NCBI GenBank assembly: GCA_029552745.1
Contig: JAKPDK010000069.1
Location: forward strand, 1-41,818
Source: Candidatus Hydrogenedentota bacterium
Lineage (GTDB): Bacteria > Hydrogenedentota > Hydrogenedentia > Hydrogenedentales > SLHB01
Direction of reading: 5' to 3'
Length of the DNA stretch: 41,818 bases
In this document: in pieces, positions 6,547 to 34,422 of the stretch
How the letters are laid out: every line of letters begins with the position of its first letter
How positions within the stretch are numbered: position 1 is the first letter of the stretch
The notes under the pieces: generated by a model
The model's database searches: none
The model's input: the letters and a program-made list of their open reading frames with translations, nothing else
Told to the model about the DNA's origin: nothing
Made by a program: the position numbers and the translations under genes

Positions 6547-8573
6547 CCCACTGTTTCCATGCCCATCCCCACACAACAACTATTGTCACGCAGCTCCACA
6601 CCATCGGGTTCTTACTGACATTCTTGTCCGTATCGTTTGCCGCGGCCCAAGAAGCGTCGCCCCAAACAGAAGAACCCTATTTATGGCCGCTCAAAAAAGA
6701 GCGCCTTATCACCTCCAGCTTTGCTGAATATCGCCCTGGCAGATTTCATGCCGGCATCGATCTCCGCACCGGCGCCGTCGGAGAACCCGTCTATGCGCCC
6801 GCAGACGGATATATCTCCCGCGTTCGTTGTTCGCCCTGGGGATACGGAAAAGCCCTATATCTCACACTGCATGACGGCAACACGGTGGTTTTTGGACACC
6901 TCAGCGATTTTATGCCTCCCGTCCGCGAATATGTCCGACACGAACAACATCAGCGCGAAAACTACACCGTAGATCTTTTCCCTGACCGCAGCCTATTTCC
7001 TGTAAAACAGGGAGACTGCATCGCGTGGAGTGGGGATACAGGCGTGGGTCCGGCTCATCTGCACTATGAAATACGTGACTCGGCGAACCGTGCCATCAAT
7101 CCCCGACAACTCGGCATTTCCTGGCACGACGAGTCCCCACCCCAAATCCGTGGCGTCTTGGTAGCGCCGGACGCTGCCACATCTTCTATCAATGGCGACA
7201 TCATCCCGAAAATTATCTCCGTACATCCCACAGGCACCAATCAATATAGCACCGACCCGGTTTATGTCTCGGGGAGATGCAGTTTCGCCGTGGATACCGT
7301 CGACCCGGCAAATCAAAATCAAAACACACTAGGCATTTACAGAACTTCCACATTTCTTAATGAGCAGGAGATCTTCCGCACACAAAATGATCTCGTCTCC
7401 TACGATTTCATTCATCACGGCGTCGTCTGCTGGCATCCCTTTTGCCTAAAGGAAGGACAGTTTCTCCTCCAATGGCGGTGGCAAGGAAACCGTAGCGAAA
7501 CCCTATCCAATACTCCCTCTGATGGCTGGATAAGCGCTCCCGCGGCGCCTTCCATTGTGCGTATTGAGGTAGAAGATTCATGCGGCAATCGGGCGGAAGT
7601 TAAAATCCCTTTGCAACCCATGACCGAATCCATGACTACCTCAAACAACAACCCCCATAACGAGCCCGCACCAAATGGTTCCGTCCGATTTGATTGTTAC
7701 GGACAGTACCTCACGGTCACGGCAACCTTCCCCAGTCCCGAATCGGAACCTCCTGTTTTAGGCATCACAGGCAACCAACCCGACGACCTATCCACCCCTT
7801 TTCGCCGTATTTCACCGAACGTCTACCGGGCTGGATATCAACCCAGCACAACGACGCAATCCGTCTCGCTGTGGGCAGACCATCCCCGCTTGCCGAATGA
7901 GACTTTACATGCCGCCGTTTTCCATCGAGGAAACCCGCCCCGAGAAGAACGTACGGGCGATGTGGTTATTCGTGCATCAGAGCATTCCCCGTTCGGCACC
8001 CTCTTCGCTCAGGTTGACGAGGTCAAATCCCCTAAACCGTCGAAGCCGCTGCCTCGCTTGGGAAAAGCCTACCGTATCTGGCCTGAGGCGTCCCCCATCG
8101 ACGAGCCCGTAGAAATTCGATTTCCATTTCCAAAAGGGGCGCAACGCCCCGAACGCGTAGAGATCTATTCTCTTGCTGGCTCGGGCTGGACGCGCCAATC
8201 CACCAAACGAATCGGAAAGGAGCTCCAAATCTCCACGCAGCGGTTCGGCACCTTCGCGGCATTGGAGGACACGGTGGAACCGTCGGTTCAAATCGTTTCC
8301 CCTGAGGAAGGCGCACAAACCTCCCGCCGCCCTGCCATTCGTATCAAAGTCTCAGACATCGGCAGCGGCATGGCAGACATACGTATCACCGCAAACGGCA
8401 AATGGTTGTTAACAGAATATGACCCCGAAGCCTCTTCCGTTCAATGGGTCGAAGATGAGGATTTGCCAACAGGAAATGTCACGATACGTGTCGAGGCAAG
8501 AGACAACGTCGGCAACACGCGCACAGTCGAGCGGCCCATTCACGTGGGACAACCCCAGCCCCCATCCAATTAA
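6543..8573 (+). CDS. Secreted M23 (LytM-like) peptidase with C-terminal beta domains
   Basis: A 676-aa exported protein. After a long n-region, a hydrophobic core (about residues 20-35) ends at an FAAAQ cleavage-like site. The M23 domain (about 48-195) has the zinc ligands: H69 and D73 in HAGID, and H172/H174 in HLHYE. All are present, so an active peptidoglycan endopeptidase is plausible. Residues 200-560 are beta-rich with no clear family. Residues ~575-670 look like an Ig-like domain of the Ig/Big type (PSVQIVSPEEGAQTSRRPAI, DNVGNTRTVERPI). The GTG start overlaps the isomerase stop, with GAGGGA as ribosome-binding site. Its 3' end overlaps the convergent pilT-like gene by four bases. Confidence 0.88.
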   Translation: MTHCFHAHPHTTTIVTQLHTIGFLLTFLSVSFAAAQEASPQTEEPYLWPLKKERLITSSFAEYRPGRFHAGIDLRTGAVGEPVYAPADGYISRVRCSPWGYGKALYLTLHDGNTVVFGHLSDFMPPVREYVRHEQHQRENYTVDLFPDRSLFPVKQGDCIAWSGDTGVGPAHLHYEIRDSANRAINPRQLGISWHDESPPQIRGVLVAPDAATSSINGDIIPKIISVHPTGTNQYSTDPVYVSGRCSFAVDTVDPANQNQNTLGIYRTSTFLNEQEIFRTQNDLVSYDFIHHGVVCWHPFCLKEGQFLLQWRWQGNRSETLSNTPSDGWISAPAAPSIVRIEVEDSCGNRAEVKIPLQPMTESMTTSNNNPHNEPAPNGSVRFDCYGQYLTVTATFPSPESEPPVLGITGNQPDDLSTPFRRISPNVYRAGYQPSTTTQSVSLWADHPRLPNETLHAAVFHRGNPPREERTGDVVIRASEHSPFGTLFAQVDEVKSPKPSKPLPRLGKAYRIWPEASPIDEPVEIRFPFPKGAQRPERVEIYSLAGSGWTRQSTKRIGKELQISTQRFGTFAALEDTVEPSVQIVSPEEGAQTSRRPAIRIKVSDIGSGMADIRITANGKWLLTEYDPEASSVQWVEDEDLPTGNVTIRVEARDNVGNTRTVERPIHVGQPQPPSN

Positions 8574-10060
8574 CCGAGAATCTTTCGCCCTTCAGAAGAT
8601 TTGATGCCCGAAACGATGCGTTCAAAGGCTTCTTCGTTACTACACGCGGAAATAGCAACTTCTTTCGTCACAATCTTTTTCTGGTAGAGCTCCACCGCAT
8701 ATTGGTCAAACGATTTCATGTCGCTGTCCACTTCAATGATGCTGTAAAGTCGCCCAATATCGCCCTCCAAAATGGCATCCCGCACAATCGGCTTGCCGCC
8801 CAACAAGATCTCTACGCAAGGAATGCGCCCCCCGCCAACTTTTTTCAGCAAACGCTGGCATACCACCCCCTGCAACGTATACGCAAGCTCCTGACGTATC
8901 AGATCGCGTTCCGCCTGCGGGAAATAACTGATCACACGGTTCACCGTGTCCACCGCCGTCATCGTGTGCAGCGTGCTGAACACCAAATGGCCTGTCTCCG
9001 CAGCGCTCAACGCAGCGCGGATCGTCTCCAAATCACGCATTTCGCCCACCAAAATCACGTCGGGGTCTTCACGAAGAGCCCCTTTCAGGGCGTTCGCAAA
9101 AGAAAACGTGTCTCTCCCCACCTGCCGCTGCGAGATAATGCTCTTCTTGTCGCGATACACGTATTCAATCGGGTCCTCGATCGTGATCACGTTGGCATGA
9201 CGCGTCTTGTTGATATAGTCAATCATCGCCGCGAGCGTGGTCGACTTACCGCTTCCCGTCGTACCGCATACCAAGAACAACCCGCGATGTTTGTCACAAA
9301 CCGCTCGCACGACATCTGGAATGTTCAAAGATTCAAACGGAAGCGGTTCTTCTGGAATAATACGAATGGCCAACGCCATGGCACCCTGCTTGTAATAACC
9401 ACTGCAACGCAAATAGCCCAAACCCGCTGCATGAAATTGAAAACTGGTCTCGCGCTCAGCTTGAAGCCGCGCCACTTCCTCCTCACTCCCCAACTGATAA
9501 ATGATCTCTTGCATATCTTCAGCCGAGAGGGGAGGCATATCCATCGGCATCAAGTCGTTGTCAACACGAATATAAGGCGGCGTACCCGCGCGCAAATGCA
9601 AGTCCGATGCATTCCGCTGCTTCATGATCTCAATCATCTTGTTGATGTTGACGTCGTGCCGTTTATACGCCTGTACCAACACCTTCCACGATTGAGAACG
9701 CAGCGTGTGAATCGCAAACTGCTCCAGAACCTGATCCACCGGCAGCAGCTGGCGTAATTGACGCCATTCAAACGACGGCAAGTGGATCAAACATTTCTCG
9801 TTCATCCCGCGTACTTGACAAGGAATTCGCGCCTGTTGCAACGCCTCAGCGACTGCATTCGGATTTACATCCGGTTTGATCTTAAACTCAATCCGAAACT
9901 TGTCGACGCGCTTGTCCATCTCCGCGCTCTGGACCTGCATGTCACAATACGGCGAGGTAAAAACTACGTCAGAAGGAATTCCTGACTGCCGGGTCAGCTC
10001 CGAGACCCCAACTTGCAACACCTCAAGAATCGTGCTGGTAGACCGCGTTCCAATAAACAT
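8570..10060 (-). CDS. pilT: PilT-like type IV pilus retraction ATPase with N-terminal extension
   Basis: A 496-aa protein. Residues ~139-480 match PilT: NASDLHLRAGTPPYIRVD near 150, Walker A GTTGSGKST (266-274), Asp box IEDPIEY, Walker B DPDVILVGE (332-340) and His box TGHLVFSTLHT (356-366). It should be a hexameric cytoplasmic ATPase that depolymerises pilin for twitching motility. PilT proteins are usually about 340-370 aa; here 138 residues precede the PilT fold and contain a predicted alpha/beta segment (KFRIEFKIKPDVNPNAVAEAL). The C-terminal motif usually seen as AIRNLIRE reads IVRDAILE. The ATG has AGGGG seven bases upstream. No other pilus genes are in the window. PilT versus PilU is not certain. 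Confidence 0.9.
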   Translation of the reverse strand: MFIGTRSTSTILEVLQVGVSELTRQSGIPSDVVFTSPYCDMQVQSAEMDKRVDKFRIEFKIKPDVNPNAVAEALQQARIPCQVRGMNEKCLIHLPSFEWRQLRQLLPVDQVLEQFAIHTLRSQSWKVLVQAYKRHDVNINKMIEIMKQRNASDLHLRAGTPPYIRVDNDLMPMDMPPLSAEDMQEIIYQLGSEEEVARLQAERETSFQFHAAGLGYLRCSGYYKQGAMALAIRIIPEEPLPFESLNIPDVVRAVCDKHRGLFLVCGTTGSGKSTTLAAMIDYINKTRHANVITIEDPIEYVYRDKKSIISQRQVGRDTFSFANALKGALREDPDVILVGEMRDLETIRAALSAAETGHLVFSTLHTMTAVDTVNRVISYFPQAERDLIRQELAYTLQGVVCQRLLKKVGGGRIPCVEILLGGKPIVRDAILEGDIGRLYSIIEVDSDMKSFDQYAVELYQKKIVTKEVAISACSNEEAFERIVSGIKSSEGRKILG

Positions 10061-10225: not shown

Positions 10226-10303
10226 TGGTACCGGGACAGGGATTCGAACCCTGGACCCCTGGATCCACAATCCAGTGCTCTAAACCAGCTGAGCTATCCC
10301 GGC
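10226..10303 (-). tRNA. tRNA-His (GTG anticodon), G1-U72 / A73 type
   Basis: A complete cloverleaf on the minus strand with encoded CCA (10226-10228). The anticodon arm is CTGGA-TTGTGGA-TCCAG, giving anticodon GTG (His). The D arm GCTC...GAGC and T loop GGTTCGAATCC are normal. The acceptor stem is GCCGGGA against TCCCGGT, so pair 1-72 is G-U and the discriminator is A73; position -1 is T. The usual bacterial tRNA-His has an encoded G-1 opposite C73, so this gene carries the divergent identity set known from alphaproteobacteria. Confidence 0.93.
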
Positions 10304-10344: not shown

Positions 10345-11613
10345 TCAACCCGACACTTGGAGCCAGCGCCGTAGCGCCGTACATGTCCGCATCAGGGCAC
10401 GTCCCGCGTGAAAAGACGTCTTCCATTCCCCGCCTTTATCGGTCGTCACAGGTTCTCCCGAGTCCCAAAAAACGTCCTGATACCAATCCCCATACTCATG
10501 GTCAATCTGATGCTCCCAGACCCACTCGAAATGCTTCTCCAATGCATCGCTGTATTTACGGTCTTGAGTCCAATCCACCGCTGCAACCAGCGCATTCAAC
10601 AGTTCCGCCTGCCCCCACCACGGCTTCAACAAGCGGTCTTCCGGCAAGTCGACCGCGTCCAAAACAGAACCCATCAGCGGTCCGTACGCCGCCAGACCAC
10701 CCCGCTCCTGATCAAATCCATACGCCAACGCGTGATCGATCAAACCAAGTACCACAGCACGATAGGGTTCCCGGGATTCCCCCAACACATCTAATGCCTC
10801 GAGTAGAAGCCATGCCAGTTCCACATTCAGACCATACGACGTCGTCATGCTGCCGGAAGCGTCCGTCACGGGATTCCAATCCGCATCAAACGCAGTTGTC
10901 GTGCACCCATACTCGGGGTGAATACCTTTCGAAGAGATCAATTCGAGCAGGCTCCTCAACGCCGCCCGATGGCGTGCCTCGCCCGAAACCCGCAAAAGAT
11001 ACGTGAACCCCTCCAGGATATTGGTATGCATGTCAATCGTCTTGATCCCACTTCGATTCCCGAGTTTCATTTGATCGGCATTTAACACGGGCCACGCACC
11101 ACCATCAAAGTCCTCAATAAATCCCATATCCCGATCAGCCGCCTGCTCCATCAGTACGTCAAACACGCGACACGCCCACGCCAACGCTTCCCGATCACCC
11201 GATGCCGCATAATAATCACTTAATCCCACCAAGGCATACCCGTGAAAGTCGGTGTTTTTTCGTCCGCATTTCGGGTGACCCTCGCGCGTCACCGAAAAGA
11301 AAAATCCACCCCGTTCCCCGTCCCACATGTGCCGCGTCACAAATTCATAACCCCAACGCGCCAAGTCAAGATAGCCTTGATCCCGAAGGCCAAACGCGTG
11401 GGCAGCCGCAAAACTCGATATTAACCGCACCTGCATGATCAAAATCTTTTCGGACATGTCCAACAAGCGTCCTTGTCGGTCTAGACGGGTCAGAAAACCC
11501 CCATACTCTTTATCCACTGCATGATTCGCCCAGAACGGCAAAAGGTTATCCGTCAACGCAGACGTCGCACGATCCAGCATCACACGTAACACCGGGATCG
11601 AAGAAGCATCCAT
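10345..11613 (-). CDS. AGE-family epimerase/isomerase (N-acylglucosamine/cellobiose 2-epimerase-like)
   Basis: About 422 aa, close to the family's usual ~400, with no signal peptide, so a cytoplasmic (alpha/alpha)6-barrel enzyme. Family landmarks are present in order (numbered from a GTG one codon upstream): R64 in MQVRLISSF, DFHGYALVGL (~123-132), H197 in IDMHTNILEGF, SYGLNVELAWLLLEA (~260-274), KPWWGQAELLNAL (331-343) and H403 in WKTSFHAGRAL. Members isomerise or epimerise at C2 of GlcNAc, mannose or cellobiose-type sugars. Position 263, normally the catalytic His of the YGHxxE motif, is Leu (codon CTG). AGAGGGGA precedes adjacent GTG (11616) and ATG (11613) starts; either may be used. Divergent from the propeller and sialidase-like genes, which suggests joint sugar catabolism. 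Confidence 0.87.
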   Translation of the reverse strand: MDASSIPVLRVMLDRATSALTDNLLPFWANHAVDKEYGGFLTRLDRQGRLLDMSEKILIMQVRLISSFAAAHAFGLRDQGYLDLARWGYEFVTRHMWDGERGGFFFSVTREGHPKCGRKNTDFHGYALVGLSDYYAASGDREALAWACRVFDVLMEQAADRDMGFIEDFDGGAWPVLNADQMKLGNRSGIKTIDMHTNILEGFTYLLRVSGEARHRAALRSLLELISSKGIHPEYGCTTTAFDADWNPVTDASGSMTTSYGLNVELAWLLLEALDVLGESREPYRAVVLGLIDHALAYGFDQERGGLAAYGPLMGSVLDAVDLPEDRLLKPWWGQAELLNALVAAVDWTQDRKYSDALEKHFEWVWEHQIDHEYGDWYQDVFWDSGEPVTTDKGGEWKTSFHAGRALMRTCTALRRWLQVSG

Positions 11614-11830
11614 CACATCAAATCCCCTCTGTAGATCGCCAAGAAATGTGGCCGCGCAAGTTCCTCAACTCAATCCATTTTGCCTCATTCTATCACTTCA
11701 ACTACCTTTCTTCTGAAGAGGATGTTACTGCCCTTGTCACCACCCAATGGAGGGACGCCTACCGACGTGACCTCACGTATTAAGTCCCCCCGACACCTTC
11801 CTTACCAATGAAAAACACGATAGAAATCTC

Positions 11831-23580: not shown

Positions 23581-25137
23581 CTAGGGAACATGCCTCATAA
23601 TCTCAGGATATAGTTTCACCGCAAAATCCTCTAAAATAGCAAATGCCGCATCCTCCCCATCGGCACCGATGGGAGTAGCGACCTGTATCATCGCGGATGT
23701 CGGCGAAGCAAACATCATCTGATTCGCCGCCCAATGCAACGCATTCACAAAATAATTACCTGTTAAATAATCACCTGTCTTAAACCAGTATAACACGGCT
23801 TGACGATTCCGCCCGTTCACAAGCACCAGTCGCTTTGCAGAAAACAGAATCCCGATCTGCGTCGTTGTCTGCTCTTTCAATTCCCAACCCGAGCCCATCA
23901 AGCATACCTCTGGGAAATGAAGACTACGCCTTGTAGCGCCGGCATATACAATTACCAACTGCACAGGCCACCCCGAACCTGAATTGTAGTTACGTATCAG
24001 CACCGTGCTCGTCTCCAAAATCGCCGCAGTTCGAGGATCTATCGTTTCGTCAGACCCCACCTGAACATAGTCGGCAATACGGGAGGGTATTGCGCCGATC
24101 GTTTCAGACGGGGCGGTCTGACCTGCACGAAATTGCGTGGTCAATATGACAAAATGAATCCCGGCTACTAGAACAAGACTGGAAACAAGCCCAAGATAAA
24201 CGTTGAAAGACGCTGATGGAAGTGCCAACGCCCCTCGGGCGCCGCTGCGAACGGCGCCGGGCTCCCCGTCCACCGGCGGCAACCAACGACGCAATTGTTT
24301 CTCCAGCGCAAAAAACAAAATAAACGCGACCACAAAGATGAGATACCCGGAAATGTCATGAAACCGCCCCGCCGCCGTTTTGCTCCCGTAAAAATATCCC
24401 ACCACGCAAAGCAAAAAAACGCGGAAAATATTCGACACGATTGCAATAACTGGCGACAAAAGCAAGACCGCCCACCGTCCCGCAGCGCGGGTCTTGCTGA
24501 TGTACGCCATAATCGCACCAAACGCCAACAAAGCAATTAAAGATCGTAACCCCCCACACACATCGCCGATCAGAAGATGGTCCGTACCCTCCGATGTAAT
24601 CCAATACACCATCGAACCATCCCGTACCAGCGGAATCGTGCACCAGCCGGCAATCATTACGGCGCATTCCGTGGCAAACAATTTCAGGCGCAGCGCAATG
24701 CTCTGCGTCAAAGAAGGTGGTATCGGTATCATAAAAAACAAATACACTATGGGGAACCACAATGTCCGCGTTACCGCGCCACCGTAAAGTAATAACAAAA
24801 TCCCCACGATCATGGGCACCAGGGAAATCTGGGAGAATACCCGAAAGCCCAAAAAATCCCCCGCCAATAGCAGCAATGCCGAACCCCAAACCCAAAAAAA
24901 TCCTGTCGAATCACTCTGCACCGGCAATGCCGCCAGCCTACCCCGAAGATGCCACACAAAAAACAGACTGACCAGCGGCACCAAAAACCCATGCGTGTAG
25001 TACGAATCCACCAGCAGCCAAACCGTGATCATCTCCCGGAATGACCGCCAGTACAGCGCCACCAAGACGCCCAACACCAATAAACCGAATGCCAGGTGGC
25101 GTCTTGCCTCTCCGCTACCTTCCTGTTGAGTTTCCAT
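23581..25137 (-). CDS. Exosortase fused to a C-terminal EpsI domain
   Basis: 518 aa. The N-terminal ~285 residues form the polytopic exosortase, with IPIPPSLTQSIALRLK (~137-152) and the three catalytic residues in order: C194 in GDVCGGLRSL, R239 in SNIFRV, H260 in FHDISGYL. After a short loop and one more helix (~311-332), residues ~345-518 are a periplasmic EpsI (DUF3485-like) domain with LHFPEVCLMGSGW (406-418) and the YWFKTGDYLTGNYFVNALHWA segment. Exosortases cleave and anchor proteins bearing PEP-CTERM-type C-terminal signals, usually in EPS-producing Gram-negatives. The ATG has GGAAGAG seven bases upstream. It sits between the 1079-aa TPR protein gene and the PAS gene. No substrate with a sorting signal is encoded here. 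Confidence 0.92.
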   Translation of the reverse strand: METQQEGSGEARRHLAFGLLVLGVLVALYWRSFREMITVWLLVDSYYTHGFLVPLVSLFFVWHLRGRLAALPVQSDSTGFFWVWGSALLLLAGDFLGFRVFSQISLVPMIVGILLLLYGGAVTRTLWFPIVYLFFMIPIPPSLTQSIALRLKLFATECAVMIAGWCTIPLVRDGSMVYWITSEGTDHLLIGDVCGGLRSLIALLAFGAIMAYISKTRAAGRWAVLLLSPVIAIVSNIFRVFLLCVVGYFYGSKTAAGRFHDISGYLIFVVAFILFFALEKQLRRWLPPVDGEPGAVRSGARGALALPSASFNVYLGLVSSLVLVAGIHFVILTTQFRAGQTAPSETIGAIPSRIADYVQVGSDETIDPRTAAILETSTVLIRNYNSGSGWPVQLVIVYAGATRRSLHFPEVCLMGSGWELKEQTTTQIGILFSAKRLVLVNGRNRQAVLYWFKTGDYLTGNYFVNALHWAANQMMFASPTSAMIQVATPIGADGEDAAFAILEDFAVKLYPEIMRHVP

Positions 25138-25155: not shown

Positions 25156-28100
25156 TTACGATGTCTTCGGAGTCTTTTGTAGTTCCTGTTGCACTTCTCG
25201 ATATAAAATCGGGTCCAGGGTCTCGCCTGTTTTTTGTGCCTTCTGGCTGGCAGCGTCAAACAAACTCGCCGCACGACGGCTGTCCCCGACCGCAACATAT
25301 ACACGCGCCAAACGCAGATCGAGGTCCGCAGGGGTTCGGCTCATTGTGCTTGCAGCCTGTTCCAGATCGCTACGAGCCGCCCCATATTCCGCCCGCGCCA
25401 TATAGATCGTTCCCCTGAAATAGTAAAACTCAGGCAGAGGCATCAAACGGATAGCGCTCGTCACCGCGTCCAACGCCGCCGCCTTTTGCGTTGGCATCTG
25501 AAACAGCGCCCGACTCTTCGCAAACCATGCCGACGCGTCTTCCGGGTCTGCTGTCAACAAGCGGTCACACACCGCTGCCGCCTGTCCCGATTCGCCCCGC
25601 AGCAGCAAGGTCTCCGCAAGAAGTCGCAACGCCGGCACATACGCGGGCGCGTCAAACAACAGCTCCGACAAGGTCGAAATGCACCGCGCCGTGGAGCGCG
25701 CTGAGCCCATCCGATACTGGAAAACCGCAAGCGCCATCAAACCCTCTACGTCTCGCCTCGAATGGGTGACGTAGTTCTCCAGATATCGCCCCGCTTCTTC
25801 TTCGCCATGTAACGACAAAAGAACCTCTGCCACCATTCTGGCTATGTCGAGGTTCGCTGAAGGTTCTTCAAGGACTCGTCCCAATTCTGCCTGTGCCTGC
25901 TCTTTTTGACCTTGCAGAGCAAACAGCAATCCGCGTAACACACCGAGCTTGGCACGCCAAGCCTCGTCGTTTTGAACTTGTTGTTGCAAGCGATCCAGAA
26001 TCGTTTGTGCTGTCGCCACATCTCCTACCGCCCCGTTCGCCCAAACCAAAACGGCAAGGGCTTCGGCGCCCACCTTCGGTTCCTCCCATAGACCCCGCAC
26101 GAGTCCCAGCGCCTCCCCGGGTCTACCAAACTCCAAAAATCGCCGTGCCAATCGGATTCGCAACGCATACGTCTTCTCCCCACTGGATTCTGCTGCCCGC
26201 ACCACATGGAACGCCGAACCCGCAAGGTCATCATGTAACAAACAACACGTCGCAAGGCCCAAGCGGACAGCGGAATCTTCCACTCCCGCTCGTAACGCGC
26301 CCGTCAGCAACGCTTTCGCTTTGCTTACCGCCGGGGGATCCGCGTTCAAGAACAAGTAGGCTTCTATCACAGAAGCATGCGCGTCGGCTCGATCAGCGTC
26401 GCGAATCATCTTTAAAATCTTTTCCGCTGTTACGCGATAACCGCGGGGATCACGTTCCAACGCAGAAATGGCGGCGTTCATCCGAACACGATTGAGACTG
26501 GGCACGAGTGCCGCCGGCACGTCCCGCCGGTTGCCAAATTCATCCAACCAGGCAAACGCTTCGGCCAATCGGTCGGCTTGGAGCGCGGCGGCAATCCGCT
26601 CCATTTCCAGCGCAACACGTTCGTCTCCTTCGGATACCTCTATCGCACGCGTCAACATGTCGACTGCATGGCTTGCTTGCCCCCTGCGAATAAAAAGTTC
26701 GATCCAAGGTTTCATGTCACTACGTCCCACGGCACGCAGCGCAAGAAACTCTTGAAAACGTCGGTCTGCCTCTTCCAAACGGTTTTGGACAAGGTCAAGA
26801 TACGCGCCCAAGCGCAAGACCACACCTCGCTCAAGCCCGTTGCTTTCCGCCTTGGATAAGACCGTTGCCGCCGCGTCAATCTGCTGTGCGGCCACCAGCG
26901 CCTCCAGCAATCCCTGATACGCCGTCTCTGAAGTCGGACGAAGCCGAATCGCGCGTTCGTAGAGTCCCACTACCGTGTCAACATGGTCCGCCAACGACTG
27001 AGACGCCACCGCCGCACGAAACAGGGCGAAGGCGGTTTGCACCAACAAATCCGGCGAGTCAGGACCACCCGCCAGCATATCCCGTGCCTGCCGAGCCAAC
27101 TGCGCCAGAGAACCTTCCTCTTGACGATTCCACGCCAACAATGCCTTCGCGCGCTCATCCCCAGGATAACGATACAAATACGATTCCAACGCGCTACGTC
27201 CAAGGCTTTCCTGTCCGGAAGCAAGATACGCAATGGCGAGATAAAACTGTGCCGGCATAAAATTGGGCCGCTGACGGGCGACCGCAGCAAAAAGCTCGAT
27301 CGCAGCGTTTGGGTCCGATTTTGCCAATAAGATCCGACCCCGTAAATAGTCTCCTATAGGCTTTTGCTCTGGATGAGAATCCAAGAACGCTGCAATTGTC
27401 TGTTCTGCCGCGTCCCAATTCCCCGCGGTGATCTGCAAATCCCCCAACGTTATCCACACATCGGGATGATCAGCAAGAAAGAGAGGACTCGCTTTTTCTA
27501 GCACCGCTAGCGCTTTGTCCACTTGACCAAGACGCACATAAGCCTGTGCCGCTGCAATTAACAGAGAAGCGTTTTCCGGCTGCCTCGCCAACGCCTGCTC
27601 CAGAAGCTCACGCGCCGTCGCCCAGTCCCGATTCATCGCGGCTTGTTCCGCAGCGATACGCAACACAAACGGATCATCGGGCGATAACCGCCTCGCCTCT
27701 TCAAGTGCCTTCTGTGCCGCCGCAGTTTCCCCAATCGCTGCGAGAAACTTGGCACGAACGGCATGCAACGCGCCGTTTTGCGGCGATTGTGCACACGCAT
27801 TCTCCAATTCGCTGCGCGCAGTGTCCACTTGGTTTTGGGCACGTAAAAGGAAAACTAACTGCTCATAGATTTCAGAGGGGTCGGAAACAAGCGCGACGAG
27901 TTCTCGATAGCAGGTCACCGCTTCTCCATGTCGTCCCATGTCCCGCAAGGCATCCGCCAAAACTCGAAGCAACGTCGGGTCCTTCGGGCGATGGTTCAAA
28001 AACTCGCGGGCGTAATACTCCAACGTGGGATAACTCCGCATTCGCGCATACAATTCCAACAACCGATCTTCGGCTTCGCGGTCTTGCGGTTGGTATCGAA

Positions 28101-28395
28101 GGATCTGGTGATACGCCGTGGCGGCGTTTTGGAGCGCGCCCAGTCGGCCCGATACCTTCATCAAATTGGCATCGGCATATTTGCGAAGCGCATGCACATC
28201 GTCAGGAACACGCCCTAAATAAAAACTATAGGCGCGCGTCGCCTTATCCCACTGTTGTTGTTCCAAGGCGGTTTCTGCTTCATGCCGCCATCGCCGAGTT
28301 TGAGCGCTACGATAGACAAGAAGACCAACGAGACCGACTATACCCAAGCCAATCAAAAGAAGAAGCAAAATGCCGTATTTCCATCGGGATGTCAT
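25156..28395 (-). CDS. 1079-aa membrane-anchored TPR-repeat protein
   Basis: One N-terminal membrane helix (about residues 8-29: YGILLLLLIGLGIVGLVGLL), then over 1000 residues of TPR-type helical repeats facing the periplasm (inside-positive TSRWK at the N-terminus). Examples: QQWDKATRAYSFYLGRVPDD, RHGEAVTCYRELVALVSDPS, ETAAAQKALEEARRLSPDDP, RQRPNFMPAQFYLAIAYLAS. The ATG overlaps the stop of the GT26 gene (ATGA) and is 18 bases from the exosortase gene downstream. TPR proteins next to exosortases and in EPS/cellulose systems act as scaffolds that link the inner-membrane synthase with the outer-membrane port. I infer that role here. No enzymatic domain seen. Confidence 0.85.
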   Translation of the reverse strand: MTSRWKYGILLLLLIGLGIVGLVGLLVYRSAQTRRWRHEAETALEQQQWDKATRAYSFYLGRVPDDVHALRKYADANLMKVSGRLGALQNAATAYHQILRYQPQDREAEDRLLELYARMRSYPTLEYYAREFLNHRPKDPTLLRVLADALRDMGRHGEAVTCYRELVALVSDPSEIYEQLVFLLRAQNQVDTARSELENACAQSPQNGALHAVRAKFLAAIGETAAAQKALEEARRLSPDDPFVLRIAAEQAAMNRDWATARELLEQALARQPENASLLIAAAQAYVRLGQVDKALAVLEKASPLFLADHPDVWITLGDLQITAGNWDAAEQTIAAFLDSHPEQKPIGDYLRGRILLAKSDPNAAIELFAAVARQRPNFMPAQFYLAIAYLASGQESLGRSALESYLYRYPGDERAKALLAWNRQEEGSLAQLARQARDMLAGGPDSPDLLVQTAFALFRAAVASQSLADHVDTVVGLYERAIRLRPTSETAYQGLLEALVAAQQIDAAATVLSKAESNGLERGVVLRLGAYLDLVQNRLEEADRRFQEFLALRAVGRSDMKPWIELFIRRGQASHAVDMLTRAIEVSEGDERVALEMERIAAALQADRLAEAFAWLDEFGNRRDVPAALVPSLNRVRMNAAISALERDPRGYRVTAEKILKMIRDADRADAHASVIEAYLFLNADPPAVSKAKALLTGALRAGVEDSAVRLGLATCCLLHDDLAGSAFHVVRAAESSGEKTYALRIRLARRFLEFGRPGEALGLVRGLWEEPKVGAEALAVLVWANGAVGDVATAQTILDRLQQQVQNDEAWRAKLGVLRGLLFALQGQKEQAQAELGRVLEEPSANLDIARMVAEVLLSLHGEEEAGRYLENYVTHSRRDVEGLMALAVFQYRMGSARSTARCISTLSELLFDAPAYVPALRLLAETLLLRGESGQAAAVCDRLLTADPEDASAWFAKSRALFQMPTQKAAALDAVTSAIRLMPLPEFYYFRGTIYMARAEYGAARSDLEQAASTMSRTPADLDLRLARVYVAVGDSRRAASLFDAASQKAQKTGETLDPILYREVQQELQKTPKTS

Positions 28396-29286: not shown

Positions 29287-31662
29287 TCATAGAGATTCTG
29301 TGTCGGTTCCCGACCTCGTTTCGGAATCTTCTCTCATATTCTGCCCAGGGACATCTTCATCTTCCAAAAGGATGATGCTAGATAACTCTTCCGTCTCAGG
29401 TTCCGGCTTCTTCGCCTGACTTACCCGATTGGCTCCCCGACGCGAAGAATCACTCGCCGTGGAAGGTTCCTTGCCGTACGCGTAGTATTTGCCAAGATTC
29501 TCTTCCAAATAACCCCACCGTGTAGGCTTGAGTTTGTTTAACACAATACCCACTAAATTCGCACCCACCTGACGCAGCTCCGTAATACAGCGCCGCGTCA
29601 TTCCCAGCGTCGAAACCTCCGAACCCACCACCAGAACCACCCCGTCCACAACAGGCGATAACAACTTCGCATCCGACATCAGGAGCGCCGGCGGACTGTC
29701 AATGATCACATGGTCAAACGCCTTTTCCGCCTCTTCCAAAAACTCCACAAGTTCCCGCGACGCCAATTTTTCTGCTACGACATCGCTTTCCCTCCCAGGA
29801 CCGATGAGGAACAAGTTCGGCACACTCGTCTCCCGGACCACGTCCCGCGGCTGCCGCCCCTTGCTGAATATCTCTTCCAATCCCTCAGAAGGCTCCATGC
29901 CAAAACACCGTTCCACCCCCGGACGCCGCGCACTAATGTCCACCAGCAACACACGCCGCTCTGCCTGCGCTAACGCACACGCAAGGTTGCAAGCCAACGA
30001 CGTTTTGCCATCACCCTGGGAGGGACTCGTAACCAAAACCGTGTTTAATTCTGCGGAACCTTCCGGCGGATAAATAATGCGGGTAATAATGCGACGGTAC
30101 TGGTCTGCCGTCGTCGAGTTAGGAAAATCCACTGAAAGCCGGGCAGGATTGACACCACGCGGGAGCTTGTCGGACGCCGCATCCGGTATCGCCGCCAGTA
30201 CCGGTAAATCCGTGACCGGTTTCAGGTCTTGCGGCATGCGAATGTGCTGATCGGTCATCTCTCGAAACACACCCAAACACACGCCCGCACCTACTGAAAA
30301 CACCAAAGCTAGCAACATAAACTGCAGCCGCTTCCCATACTGCGGCTTTTCCGGCGCAACGGTGGCTGACGGCTCATTCACACGTCCCGGCGCCCGTTCT
30401 TCTACATCCAGAAGTCGAATAGACTCTACAAACTGGTCATACTCTTTTCGCATCTGCTCTAACTTGGCTTCTTCTTCTTCGATCGTCGCCATTGACTGTG
30501 CCAAGTCTTCCAACTTCTTCTCGTGCTCCTGAATCGTCTGTTTGAACTGATCCACTCGACCCTGGGCATCTTCCACCTGCTTTTGCGCCGCCGCCAACTC
30601 CAACCGATGGCGCTCGAAAATTGTGTTCAGTTCATCCGTGCGCAACCGCGCCTTCGTCTGCTCTATTTGATTCTGCACCGTCGCCAACGTATCCCGTTCT
30701 GCCTTCAACGGCGGGGCGTCCTCGACGTACTTCGTTTCCATATCGGCGATCCGCCGAGCTACCGTGACCTCTTGCTGACGGAGCGCTTGAACCGCGGGAT
30801 CGGAACTCACCTTTTCCTCAACACCCATTTCGTATACCGGCTCCGTGGGATTCGCCTGATGCCGCGCCTGGATTTTCTGAACCTCGGCTACCAAGTTCTC
30901 AAGACGGGAAACGTTCGATTGTGCCGTCGACAACTCCGCCTGAGCCTGCCCCAACCGATCGTGATAGAACTGCAGCCCAATCTCTCCCACGGGAGTAGAA
31001 CCCTCCAGGGTCACCCCAGCAGTACGCTTCATGTCGGCAATACGCGCCCGCTGCTCTTCCATCCGCTTCTGAATCGCTTCCCGCTCTTCCACCAAGAGTT
31101 TTCTGCGTTGCCCTATCCCCTCACTCTCGATGCTGGAGACGTACCGTACGTACGTCTCCACAATCTTCGACACCACGGTCATCGCCGCTGCCCGATCGGT
31201 CGACCGACACGATATCCGTATCAACTCGCTCGACGGCTGCACTTTCGCATCTACTTTGGCCATGAGAAAATGTAGCGGGTCTTTTTGATTCCGTATCCAA
31301 GGCAGATCGCGCACCGCAGGGTCATTCACCACTTTGGCAAGAATCGTCGGTCCTTTTATCAGAGACACCTGGGTCGCTACATAACGGTCGTAGTCCACAC
31401 TCGACGGGCTCTGCCCCTCGCGCAACACGCCCGGGCGCGTTGCCTGAATCGCAATAAAATTCGATGCCTCATACTCCGCGGGCACCAAAAACCATGCCGC
31501 TATCATCAGCGGCAACGCCAATACTACCGACGTAATCACCATAAACCGGCCGCGAAGACGCAACAGTCGCTTGATATTCAGCGACGTCCCCGCCTCCCCC
31601 TGCGGCGGCAAACCGCCAGGACCAAATGGCGCCGACAATTCCGTCGAAAATTCTGTGGTCAT
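29287..31662 (-). CDS. Wzc/GumC-like polysaccharide co-polymerase with tyrosine-kinase domain
   Basis: 791 aa. TM1 is at ~41-61 and TM2 at ~447-466, bounding a periplasmic Wzz/GNVR region with two coiled coils (about 185-265 and 320-415). The cytoplasmic BY-kinase domain has Walker A SPSQGDGKTS (546-555) and Walker B VIIDSPPAL (652-660). The Walker A' motif reads VDISARRP (574-581), so the second Asp of the usual DxDxR pattern is Ser. The Tyr cluster is short (Y718, Y726, Y727, Y729) and is followed by a ~60-residue acidic Ser/Glu-rich tail, whereas such clusters are usually near the C-terminus. It should control chain length and export of the polymer with the Wza-like protein. AGGAGG precedes the ATG by four bases. 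Confidence 0.88.
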   Translation of the reverse strand: MTTEFSTELSAPFGPGGLPPQGEAGTSLNIKRLLRLRGRFMVITSVVLALPLMIAAWFLVPAEYEASNFIAIQATRPGVLREGQSPSSVDYDRYVATQVSLIKGPTILAKVVNDPAVRDLPWIRNQKDPLHFLMAKVDAKVQPSSELIRISCRSTDRAAAMTVVSKIVETYVRYVSSIESEGIGQRRKLLVEEREAIQKRMEEQRARIADMKRTAGVTLEGSTPVGEIGLQFYHDRLGQAQAELSTAQSNVSRLENLVAEVQKIQARHQANPTEPVYEMGVEEKVSSDPAVQALRQQEVTVARRIADMETKYVEDAPPLKAERDTLATVQNQIEQTKARLRTDELNTIFERHRLELAAAQKQVEDAQGRVDQFKQTIQEHEKKLEDLAQSMATIEEEEAKLEQMRKEYDQFVESIRLLDVEERAPGRVNEPSATVAPEKPQYGKRLQFMLLALVFSVGAGVCLGVFREMTDQHIRMPQDLKPVTDLPVLAAIPDAASDKLPRGVNPARLSVDFPNSTTADQYRRIITRIIYPPEGSAELNTVLVTSPSQGDGKTSLACNLACALAQAERRVLLVDISARRPGVERCFGMEPSEGLEEIFSKGRQPRDVVRETSVPNLFLIGPGRESDVVAEKLASRELVEFLEEAEKAFDHVIIDSPPALLMSDAKLLSPVVDGVVLVVGSEVSTLGMTRRCITELRQVGANLVGIVLNKLKPTRWGYLEENLGKYYAYGKEPSTASDSSRRGANRVSQAKKPEPETEELSSIILLEDEDVPGQNMREDSETRSGTDTESL

Positions 31663-31670
31663 ACCACCTC

Positions 31671-32921
31671 CTACGGCGTCGGTGTCACAGTACGGAACAC
31701 ATTTCCAAAGTCCCGTAAGCCCTGCAACACCGCCAAGGTGCCCGCTGTACCATCGCCTGCGTTATCGAACATTCTGCTGAATTGCTTATCCGTGTACCAC
31801 GTGTTGTACGCCTCTTGATACAAATCCATAATCGGCAGGAACGACCCCGCAAACCGATTCGCAAAATCCTGTAAACGCACCAACGGACGTCGCGGCACGT
31901 AGACAATGTCTCCAGCCCGCAACGGCACGTCTTTCCCCGTCTTTAACGCCCGCTTCACGTTGATCAACAACACTTCGCTCTCTTCCGTATTCACGCCACG
32001 AATAATCACAACCTTTTGCTTGTACGCCACCGGCTCCAACAGCCCCCCCGCGCGCGCCAATACCTGTAACAACGACTCGCCCTCTACAAGGGAAAATACC
32101 GTCGGCCGCACCACCGCTCCCATGATATAAACCAAATTCACCCCCTCAGGAACAAATACCACGTCGTCAGGCCAAACCGGAATCTGCGATGGATGTTGCC
32201 CCGGGGTTGTCAGTCCTTTCAAATCACACGAGATGATCTCCCGTTCCTTGCCCTTGTGACGGATGATGTACGCCAGACTTAACGACCCCTGCGCCGACTC
32301 AAAATACTCGCCCGTCGCCCGACTCCTGTCGCGAACGCCACCAGCGATATTGATCGCCTGAAGTACCGAGATGGGTCTCCGGTATGGATATTCCGAGGGA
32401 CGGTTCACATCACCCATCACATAAAACGACTGTCCCGTTGCCGCCACCACCGTCAACGACACTTGCGGGTCACGAAATACCTTGCAGTACGCCTTACGAA
32501 CCACCTCCAATGCCTCGTCCCGCGTCAACCCCGCTACAGACACATCTTCGATCAACGGCAACGAAATATACCCATCAAAACGCACCATGACCTGCGGCAC
32601 ATTGAGTGTCTCGTCATCAAACGACCGAAACGCCAACGTGTCACCCGGCGCAATGCGATATTCCGGCAAAGCCATCTTTTCATCAAAAGACGATTCGCCT
32701 CCTTCCGGCGCCGACTCCGGTTGCGCTGCGGCAGCGGGTACGTCGGTCTGAATCACGTCGCCCGTCTTGACGCGCATCGCCTCTTCCACGACCGACGCGT
32801 CGCTGTTAGCTTTAGCCGCCTTCGTTTCGCGCAACGAAGAGGCGCATCCAGCGCCCAGCATCGCAATCAAAACCAACAACGCGCTATGGCATACAACTCG
32901 ACCCCTCTGATGTGCTCTCAT
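31671..32921 (-). CDS. Wza-like polysaccharide export lipoprotein (SLBB)
   Basis: 416 aa with a lipoprotein signal: LLVLIAMLGAGC with the lipid-acceptor Cys at residue 26. The poly_export domain (about 85-180) starts YRIAPGDTLAFRSFDDETLN and has VRFDGYISLPLIEDVSVAGLTRDEALEVV. SLBB-type modules follow (GQSFYVMGDVNRPSEYPY, LVYIMGAVVRPTVFSLVEGESLLQVLARAGGL). It should oligomerise into the outer-membrane export channel. The ATG overlaps the stop of the sigma-54 activator gene (ATGA), and the stop is eight bases from the tyrosine-kinase gene, so it is translationally coupled on one transcript. Confidence 0.92.
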   Translation of the reverse strand: MRAHQRGRVVCHSALLVLIAMLGAGCASSLRETKAAKANSDASVVEEAMRVKTGDVIQTDVPAAAAQPESAPEGGESSFDEKMALPEYRIAPGDTLAFRSFDDETLNVPQVMVRFDGYISLPLIEDVSVAGLTRDEALEVVRKAYCKVFRDPQVSLTVVAATGQSFYVMGDVNRPSEYPYRRPISVLQAINIAGGVRDRSRATGEYFESAQGSLSLAYIIRHKGKEREIISCDLKGLTTPGQHPSQIPVWPDDVVFVPEGVNLVYIMGAVVRPTVFSLVEGESLLQVLARAGGLLEPVAYKQKVVIIRGVNTEESEVLLINVKRALKTGKDVPLRAGDIVYVPRRPLVRLQDFANRFAGSFLPIMDLYQEAYNTWYTDKQFSRMFDNAGDGTAGTLAVLQGLRDFGNVFRTVTPTP

Positions 32922-34093
32922 TCCGTTGATTCTCCCTGCATCTCCTGCTCGCCGATATTATAGGCCTCTATCCTTCGAAGAATCGAACTATAACTGATCC
33001 CCAAGAGCTTCGCCGCTTTGCGGCGATTCCAAAGGGTCAATCGTAAAGCCTCCTCTATTAACCCACGTTCCGCCTGCTCTATCGCCCGACGACGCGCTTC
33101 CTTCAAGGACATCAACTTGGGTGGCGCCTCTTTCTCCTGCTTAGGAACTGCTCGCCTCGGGGGCGTTTGCACATCACGTTCTTGCGCGGACGACGCCGCC
33201 CGCGATTCGGGCGCTGCAGGCTGCTTCGGAGGTACTCGGAACACCGCCGCAGGAGCCGGCGGCACAAGCGACGACGGTACGATGGGGGAAGAAAGTGTCG
33301 TCTTGCGCGATTCCGGCTCTCCAAAAAGAGATTCCGGATTGCCCGTTGCGACGTACTTACGAACACAAGCGGCAAGTTCTCGAACATTCCCAGGCCAAGG
33401 CAAAGTCAGCATCTTCTGCACGTACGCTTCCGGTAACGGCTCATAGGAACGTCCAAACATTCGTCGAAAATTAAAGTTGAAATGCTCCGCCAACAAGGGA
33501 ATATCCACGGGACGTTCCCGCAAAGGCGGCAGGTGAATGTGTGCCTCCGTTAATCGAAAATACAACTCCTGGCGAATTCGCTCCCGCGCAACCGCATCCT
33601 CGATCCTCATGTTCGTCGCTGCAACGACCCGCACATCACACGGAATCGGTTTCACACCGCCAACCCGCAGGATCGGTTCGCCGTCCAACATCTGAAGCAG
33701 TTTCCCCTGAACCGCAAAACTGGTCTCCGTTATCTCATCCAAAAACAAAGTACCGTGATGCGCCAACTCCACACGACCCGGCTTGGAGGTTTGCGCGCCC
33801 GTAAATGCCCCCCGCTCGTAACCAAAAAGCTCACTCTCAAATATACTCTCCGGAATCGCAGGACAATTCACCTTGATAAACGGTTTCTCCGCGCGCGGCG
33901 ACAACCGGTGCAACATCCTCGCTACGATGTCTTTCCCCGTACCACTTTCCCCCGTGATCAATACCGTGAGACGGGTCTGCGCCATCCGCCGAACCAGTTC
34001 GTTCACCTCGCGCATCGCCTCACTTGTGCCTAAAAGTACCTCGTGAAGAGGCGCACTAATGAGTTCTATTGGAAAACGCGTCTGTTCGCCCAT
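32918..34093 (-). CDS. Sigma-54-dependent activator lacking a receiver domain
   Basis: 391 aa from the ATG at 34093 (a TTG one codon upstream opens the frame; AGGGA lies just before). The AAA+ domain begins within ~20 residues of the N-terminus. It has Walker A GESGTGKD (~48-55), the sigma-54-contacting loop ERGAFTGA (~94-101), Walker B GTLFLDE (~114-120) and the R-finger/sensor segments. A Pro/Ala/Ser-rich linker of about 80 residues follows (SSLVPPAPAAVFRVPPKQPA). Then comes a Fis-type helix-turn-helix (NRRKAAKLLGISYSSILRRI). No receiver, GAF or PAS domain is present, so it is PspF-like in layout. It is the first gene of the exopolysaccharide run and is coupled to the Wza-like gene, which suggests autogenous control. 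I found no convincing -24/-12 site upstream. Confidence 0.9.
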   Translation of the reverse strand: MGEQTRFPIELISAPLHEVLLGTSEAMREVNELVRRMAQTRLTVLITGESGTGKDIVARMLHRLSPRAEKPFIKVNCPAIPESIFESELFGYERGAFTGAQTSKPGRVELAHHGTLFLDEITETSFAVQGKLLQMLDGEPILRVGGVKPIPCDVRVVAATNMRIEDAVARERIRQELYFRLTEAHIHLPPLRERPVDIPLLAEHFNFNFRRMFGRSYEPLPEAYVQKMLTLPWPGNVRELAACVRKYVATGNPESLFGEPESRKTTLSSPIVPSSLVPPAPAAVFRVPPKQPAAPESRAASSAQERDVQTPPRRAVPKQEKEAPPKLMSLKEARRRAIEQAERGLIEEALRLTLWNRRKAAKLLGISYSSILRRIEAYNIGEQEMQGESTE

Positions 34094-34422
34094 CAAGTTC
34101 CCTTTTAGTCTCGACGATTCACCTTCCCAGTCACGAAAATCCTGATTAAAAAATAGTTTTTGCGCTCCACTCAGACAATAAACCGACCAAAAGCCATCTT
34201 GAGCATTCCCAAGAATGACACATATGTTATCAATACGTCAATATTCTTATTCGAATGTGAATTGCAGTAAAACAGCCTACAAAAAGCGAATAATATACTG
34301 AGCTAGAAAAAACAAAAAATCCGGTATGAGAATCCGAAAGACCAATGGCCGTTGGTACCCCAGCCCAAAAGAAATGGGAGTTATCTAATGAAATAGTTGC
34401 CGAATAATCCGTTTATATCTTG
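34094..34422. other. AT-rich noncoding leader between two minus-strand gene sets
   Basis: About 329 bases with no gene, clearly more AT-rich than the flanks. It contains a short imperfect stem-loop at 34340-34355 (ACCAATGGCCGTTGGT) and an AT-rich stretch with TATATTATT on the minus strand near 34290. A TTGACG on the same strand is at about 34234-34239 with no good -10. The promoter of the exopolysaccharide run presumably lies here but I could not fix it; no canonical sigma-54 -24/-12 pair is visible. Confidence 0.5.

Follow-up and report, generated by a model that had tools for sequence, protein, structure and literature searches.

The Hydrogenedentota appear to use a Caulobacter-type histidine identity pair, in which the tRNA-His lacks an encoded G at position -1 and the histidyl-tRNA synthetase (HisRS) lacks the residue that would read it. 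We consider it likely, with a probability of roughly 85%, that this pair exists outside the Proteobacteria, is fixed across the phylum and contains a HisRS related to the alphaproteobacterial enzyme by transfer. The starting point is the tRNA-His gene in a stretch of 41,818 nucleotides from one genome of the phylum, referred to as the window.

The G-1 of tRNA-His is among the most conserved features of tRNAs and is nearly universal. Two recent papers name the alphaproteobacteria as the only G-1-independent case among bacteria (PMC9976931, 2023; PMC6471195, 2019), and we found no reports of such a histidine identity in Acidobacteria, Solibacter or Hydrogenedentota in the open-access literature. 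The identity system itself is already known; what is new is a phylum-wide case outside the Proteobacteria, an insert shared by the two groups of HisRS and the evidence from the tRNAs. The case implies that distant bacterial lineages have either altered the tag marking a histidine tRNA or passed it from one to another. It also supplies an outgroup against which the origin of the alphaproteobacterial HisRS can be traced, and a possible source of a naturally orthogonal HisRS/tRNA-His pair for genetic-code engineering.

The tRNA-His gene and the tRNA set of its genome

ARAGORN calls a single tRNA-His within the window (Table 1), which scores 69.8 bits (E 5.7e-15) against the tRNA covariance model. 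On its own strand the full gene reads GCCGGGATAGCTCAGCTGGTTTAGAGCACTGGATTGTGGATCCAGGGGTCCAGGGTTCGAATCCCTGTCCCGGTACCA; taken by parts, it begins GCCGGGA TA GCTC AGCTGGTTTA GAGC A CTGGA TTGTGGA TCCAG and continues GGGTC CAGGG TTCGAAT CCCTG TCCCGGT A CCA. The acceptor stem is closed by a G1-U72 pair, and the canonical bacterial histidine identity, an encoded G-1 opposite C73, is absent, as the gene has T-1 and A73. A tRNA-His with T-1, G1-U72, A73 and the anticodon GTG had been proposed in an earlier sequence-only reading of this DNA, and ARAGORN, the covariance model and inspection of the sequence all confirm it. The interval given there for the gene also stands, with the refinement that it includes the CCA tail, the tRNA body being 10229-10303.

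Table 1. Positions of the tRNA-His gene, its identity elements and other features of the window
Feature	Position	Strand	Basis
tRNA-His (GTG), G1-U72, A73, encoded CCA, no encoded G-1	10226-10303	minus	ARAGORN, covariance model, sequence
Base -1 of tRNA-His, read as T on the strand of the gene (complement of 10304), not G	10304	minus	sequence
Encoded CCA (10226-10228) and discriminator A73 (10229)	10226-10229	minus	sequence
Anticodon GTG of tRNA-His	10266-10268	minus	ARAGORN, position 36 of the gene
Exosortase with EpsI domain	23581-25137		
PrsT-like TPR protein	25156-28395		
Wzc-like kinase	29287-31662		
Export protein	31671-32921		
Sigma-54 regulator	32918-34096		

The source assembly comprises 4.36 Mb in 188 contigs and is 99.69% complete with 1.59% contamination. 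A tRNA scan of this genome identified 45 tRNA genes that cover all twenty amino acids and include a single GTG anticodon, and a DNA search of the genome with the window tRNA-His matched only itself, revealing no second tRNA-His. The TIGR00442 model found one HisRS above cut-off, a protein of 486 amino acids on contig C93, with all other matches in the genome far below cut-off. No Thg1 (PF04446) was detected in the genome by a search that gave a positive result in the control, Methanosarcina acetivorans. As there is no second tRNA-His or HisRS and no PF04446 protein, the genome has no canonical tRNA-His and no known enzyme able to add G-1. The sequence-only reading would have been contradicted by an alphaproteobacterial contig, or by a canonical HisRS alongside a second tRNA-His with G-1:C73; the genome is not alphaproteobacterial (see below) and was found to contain one tRNA-His and one HisRS.

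Within the tRNA set of this genome the G1-U72 pair is found only in tRNA-His and in one tRNA-Glu, which has G73. The combination of U72 and A73 occurs in no elongator tRNA other than tRNA-His, and the initiator tRNA has C1/U72 with A73. Being unique among the elongators, U72 with A73 suits a discriminating role in histidine identity.

Histidine tRNAs across the phylum

The phylum was represented by 68 genomes of 3-8 Mb from 11 families, all in one order. The alphaproteobacterial class sample, that of Methylovirgula, came from a larger set made up of different genomes, and the genome of the window is not alphaproteobacterial, in agreement with the earlier impression from the genes of the window. 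A strict tRNA-His pattern with A73 and U72 (TTGTGR...TACCA) matched in 51 of these genomes. A looser pattern that left positions 72 and 73 open found tRNA-His in more genomes than the strict one, and across all 68 it recovered no tRNA-His with C73. Of 41 distinct tRNA-His sequences, 40 have T72 and one has C72; likewise 40 have A73 and one has G73. The pairs 2:71 and 3:70 are C-G throughout. Position -1 varies freely, with T in 30, G in seven and C in four of the 41 genes. The U72/A73 scheme is thus apparently phylum-wide, with few deviating relatives that have C72 or G73.

The deviating forms are of two kinds. One genome (G018, locus L253) has G73 in place of A73 and retains G1-U72, while G1-C72 with A73 is found in three genomes of a single genus, g44 (G060-G062, loci L144-L146), so that U72 is not universal among these genomes. 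The C72 form is also present in an extra tRNA-His copy of G007. Neither pattern found a tRNA-His in a handful of mostly incomplete genomes, of which G002 and G019 are more than 90% complete; the nearest BLAST matches there proved to be tRNA-Met or other tRNAs. Thg1 (PF04446) was found in none of 67 of the 68 genomes, the sole Thg1-like gene being in G055 (locus L264).

In eight relatives (G004, G008, G009, G016, G017, G021, G044 and G051; neighbour loci L285, L287, L293, L294 and L297-L300) the tRNA-His gene precedes hisS in the same orientation, at a distance of approximately 80-360 bases, an adjoining arrangement that would make co-transfer of the two genes easy. In the genome of the window they are on different contigs.

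The HisRS of the phylum and its alphaproteobacterial counterpart

A HisRS without the residues that recognize G-1:C73, and of the alphaproteobacterial type, was the enzyme implied by the sequence-only reading. The HisRS of this genome does lack the Gln that reads G-1:C73, and it has the loop, insert and C-terminal extension of the alphaproteobacterial A73 type. Its motif-2 loop is RADKPGAGRFREF, and the stretch with Gly in place of Gln is RADKPGAGRFRE. The motif-2 Gln interacts with G-1:C73, and the A73 clade has Gly at this position as a derived state (PMC3937112). In E. coli and most C73-type alphaproteobacteria motif 2 reads R-x-ERPQKGR, whereas in the phylum it is KPGpGR, and the Gln position is occupied by Gly in 49 of 50 phylum HisRSs and by Ala in the other. 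We scored the covariation of loop and tRNA in alphaproteobacterial genomes of known tRNA-His type (the Methylovirgula class sample): all 15 HisRSs of the A73 type have Gly and the loop KPGPGR, and every C73-type alphaproteobacterium tested retains Gln. The loop therefore follows the tRNA-His type in both the alphaproteobacteria and the phylum. Four C73 alphaproteobacteria (G216, G119, G082 and G158; loci L220-L223) have a eukaryote-like HisRS and keep both Gln and the canonical tRNA-His, which indicates that a eukaryote-like HisRS can be present on its own without the identity switch.

Two further features lie outside the loop. An insert of approximately 11 residues with the motif GRxDxSGD is present in the insertion domain of all 50 phylum HisRSs and of 13 of the 15 from A73 alphaproteobacteria, and in none of 29 HisRSs from elsewhere. 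A C-terminal extension of approximately 20 residues is common to the HisRSs of the phylum and of the A73 alphaproteobacteria. The insert is a testable candidate recognition element, which may take part in reading the acceptor end.

The HisRS of this genome scores 281-329 bits against A73-alphaproteobacterial genomes, 190-249 bits against the four C73 alphaproteobacteria with a eukaryote-like HisRS and 82 bits or less against ordinary C73 alphaproteobacteria. In a collection of plasmids and chromids the best HisRS matches were from Rhodobacterales and Rhizobiales (approximately 35-40% identity, mostly at roughly 250-275 bits), and a Sphingomonas HisRS of the C73 type scored 118 bits; phage records contained ordinary or distant HisRSs only. 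A scan of genome contigs with this HisRS matched only a threonyl-tRNA synthetase of Methylovirgula, around which the alphaproteobacterial sample was drawn.

In phylogenetic trees the HisRSs of the phylum and of the A73 alphaproteobacteria are both clearly separated from the E. coli-type enzyme that ordinary alphaproteobacteria have, and a single alphaproteobacterial HisRS clade is rejected by the AU test (p 6e-60). With all columns included, the phylum and the A73 alphaproteobacteria form one clade with support of 100/97. With the motif-2 loop removed and another set of taxa the two groups are not joined, but the AU test does not reject such a clade (p 0.23); with the loop dropped and more diverse members of the phylum included they are joined at 68/60. 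The tree alone does not settle the matter. The case for a common origin of the two HisRSs is built chiefly on three shared sequence features (loop, insert and C-terminal extension), which strongly suggest it. Few other phyla were sampled, and this type of HisRS and tRNA-His may also exist in additional lineages.

The predicted charging rule and 5' processing are inferred to be those of Caulobacter crescentus, as the same parts are present. The window gene would make the only tRNA-His of the cell; RNase P would presumably cut it at +1, leaving no extra 5' nucleotide and an end formed by G1-U72 and A73, and the single HisRS would recognize U72, A73 and the anticodon in place of G-1:C73. According to established work cited in PMC9976931, the C. 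crescentus HisRS recognizes its tRNA-His in vitro through A73, U72 and the anticodon, and this tRNA is without G-1.

Compared with known systems, the present pair shares with the Caulobacter-type (RRCH clade) pair the missing G-1, the G1-U72 pair and A73, and in the HisRS the KPGPGR loop with Gly for Gln, the GRxDxSGD insert and the C-terminal extension. It differs in belonging to another phylum, in the approximately 35-42% identity between the two HisRSs and in the start of motif 2, which is RAD- here and RNE- in the Caulobacter type; the identity rule is also phylum-wide here but confined to part of a class in the Alphaproteobacteria. With E. coli the pair shares the GTG anticodon, the cloverleaf and membership of the class II HisRS family, but E. 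coli encodes G-1 with C73 and has the motif 2 sequence ERPQKGR, neither of which is found in this genome. The eukaryotic system, in which Thg1 adds G-1 to tRNA-His, has A73 and a HisRS backbone of the same eukaryote-like kind, but this genome has no Thg1, its tRNA-His has G1-U72, and the loop and insert of its HisRS are unlike those of human HARS.

History of the pair and alternative explanations

The tRNAs carry some information on how the two groups came to share this pair. The tRNA-His of A73 alphaproteobacteria is 74% identical to that of the phylum and 65% identical to that of C73 alphaproteobacteria, a difference of 0.092 (column-bootstrap interval 0.034-0.155) that falls to 0.054 (0.003-0.111) when the acceptor stem is left out. 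The tRNA-Leu(GAG) of A73 and C73 alphaproteobacteria is 93% identical, and identity to the tRNA-Leu of the phylum is approximately 66%, a rough control as different Leu isoacceptors are compared. Such sequence identities hint that the tRNA-His may have travelled with the HisRS, or that a common pressure shaped the evolution of both. An old horizontal transfer most likely ties the HisRS of the phylum to the alphaproteobacterial G-1-independent HisRS, and the tRNA-His gene possibly moved along with it. The sequence-only reading had offered a transferred pair and a more widespread identity shift as alternatives, and both are partly right: the shift is indeed phylum-wide, and the shared HisRS features point to one related type of enzyme. 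A more specific version, in which tRNA-His and G-1-independent HisRS moved together between phyla as an orthogonal module, the alphaproteobacteria received the pair from this phylum or from one related to it, and the GRxDxSGD insert is a new recognition element for the acceptor end, is one we hold tentatively, at somewhat less than even odds. If such a joint move took place, the native alphaproteobacterial tRNA-His was not remodelled after the arrival of a eukaryotic HisRS.

The switch could also have arisen separately in the phylum and in the Alphaproteobacteria, with eukaryote-like HisRSs each losing the Gln and the same charging rule as the outcome. The weak joining of the two groups once the motif-2 loop is removed from the tree would fit such convergence, as would the protists, where independence of G-1 is seen to be able to evolve more than once (PMC6471195, PMC9976931). 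We nevertheless regard it as unlikely, as the insert and the C-terminal extension lie outside the loop and occur in none of the other HisRSs examined, and the tRNA-His of A73 alphaproteobacteria is nearer to that of the phylum than to that of C73 alphaproteobacteria, the reverse of what is seen for tRNA-Leu. It is much less probable still that a Thg1-type enzyme adds G-1 post-transcriptionally opposite A73, making the identity eukaryote-like and not Caulobacter-like. A73 is the eukaryotic discriminator, the HisRS is of a broadly eukaryote-like type and one relative has a Thg1-like gene, but neither this genome nor any other of the remaining 67 has Thg1, the conserved G1-U72 pair matches Caulobacter-type tRNAs, and the motif-2 loop and insert resemble those of the alphaproteobacterial G-1-independent HisRS and not human HARS.

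A similarly slight chance, if anything a little smaller, attaches to U-1 being kept in the mature tRNA-His, where it would pair with A73 to give an acceptor stem of eight pairs. Such pairing is possible in the precursor, and T is found at -1 here and in most of the distinct relatives, but G or C at -1 in 11 of the 41 means that the pairing is not conserved. Moreover T precedes 22 of the 45 tRNAs of this genome and is the commonest -1 base, so that T-1 on tRNA-His is ordinary and no evidence of a retained identity base. The acceptor end does resemble that of A73 alphaproteobacterial tRNA-His, as it would if the contig were an alphaproteobacterial contaminant or the tRNA-His a decoy or pseudogene; this can practically be dismissed, given that dozens of genomes from the same order contain close relatives of the sequence, that the genome has no second tRNA-His and that the assembly shows low contamination. 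The same end is kept in nearly all relatives, so it is not a product of chance and the gene is no pseudogene. We therefore retain the Caulobacter-type pair, with a HisRS related by transfer, as the preferred reading.

The tRNA-His is flanked by genes of the PilT-family ATPase and GlcNAc 2-epimerase families (8570-10060; 10345-11616), all three on the minus strand, and a large polysaccharide/exosortase locus, to which the exosortase, PrsT-like, kinase, export and regulator entries of Table 1 belong, occupies 15755-39195 of the window.
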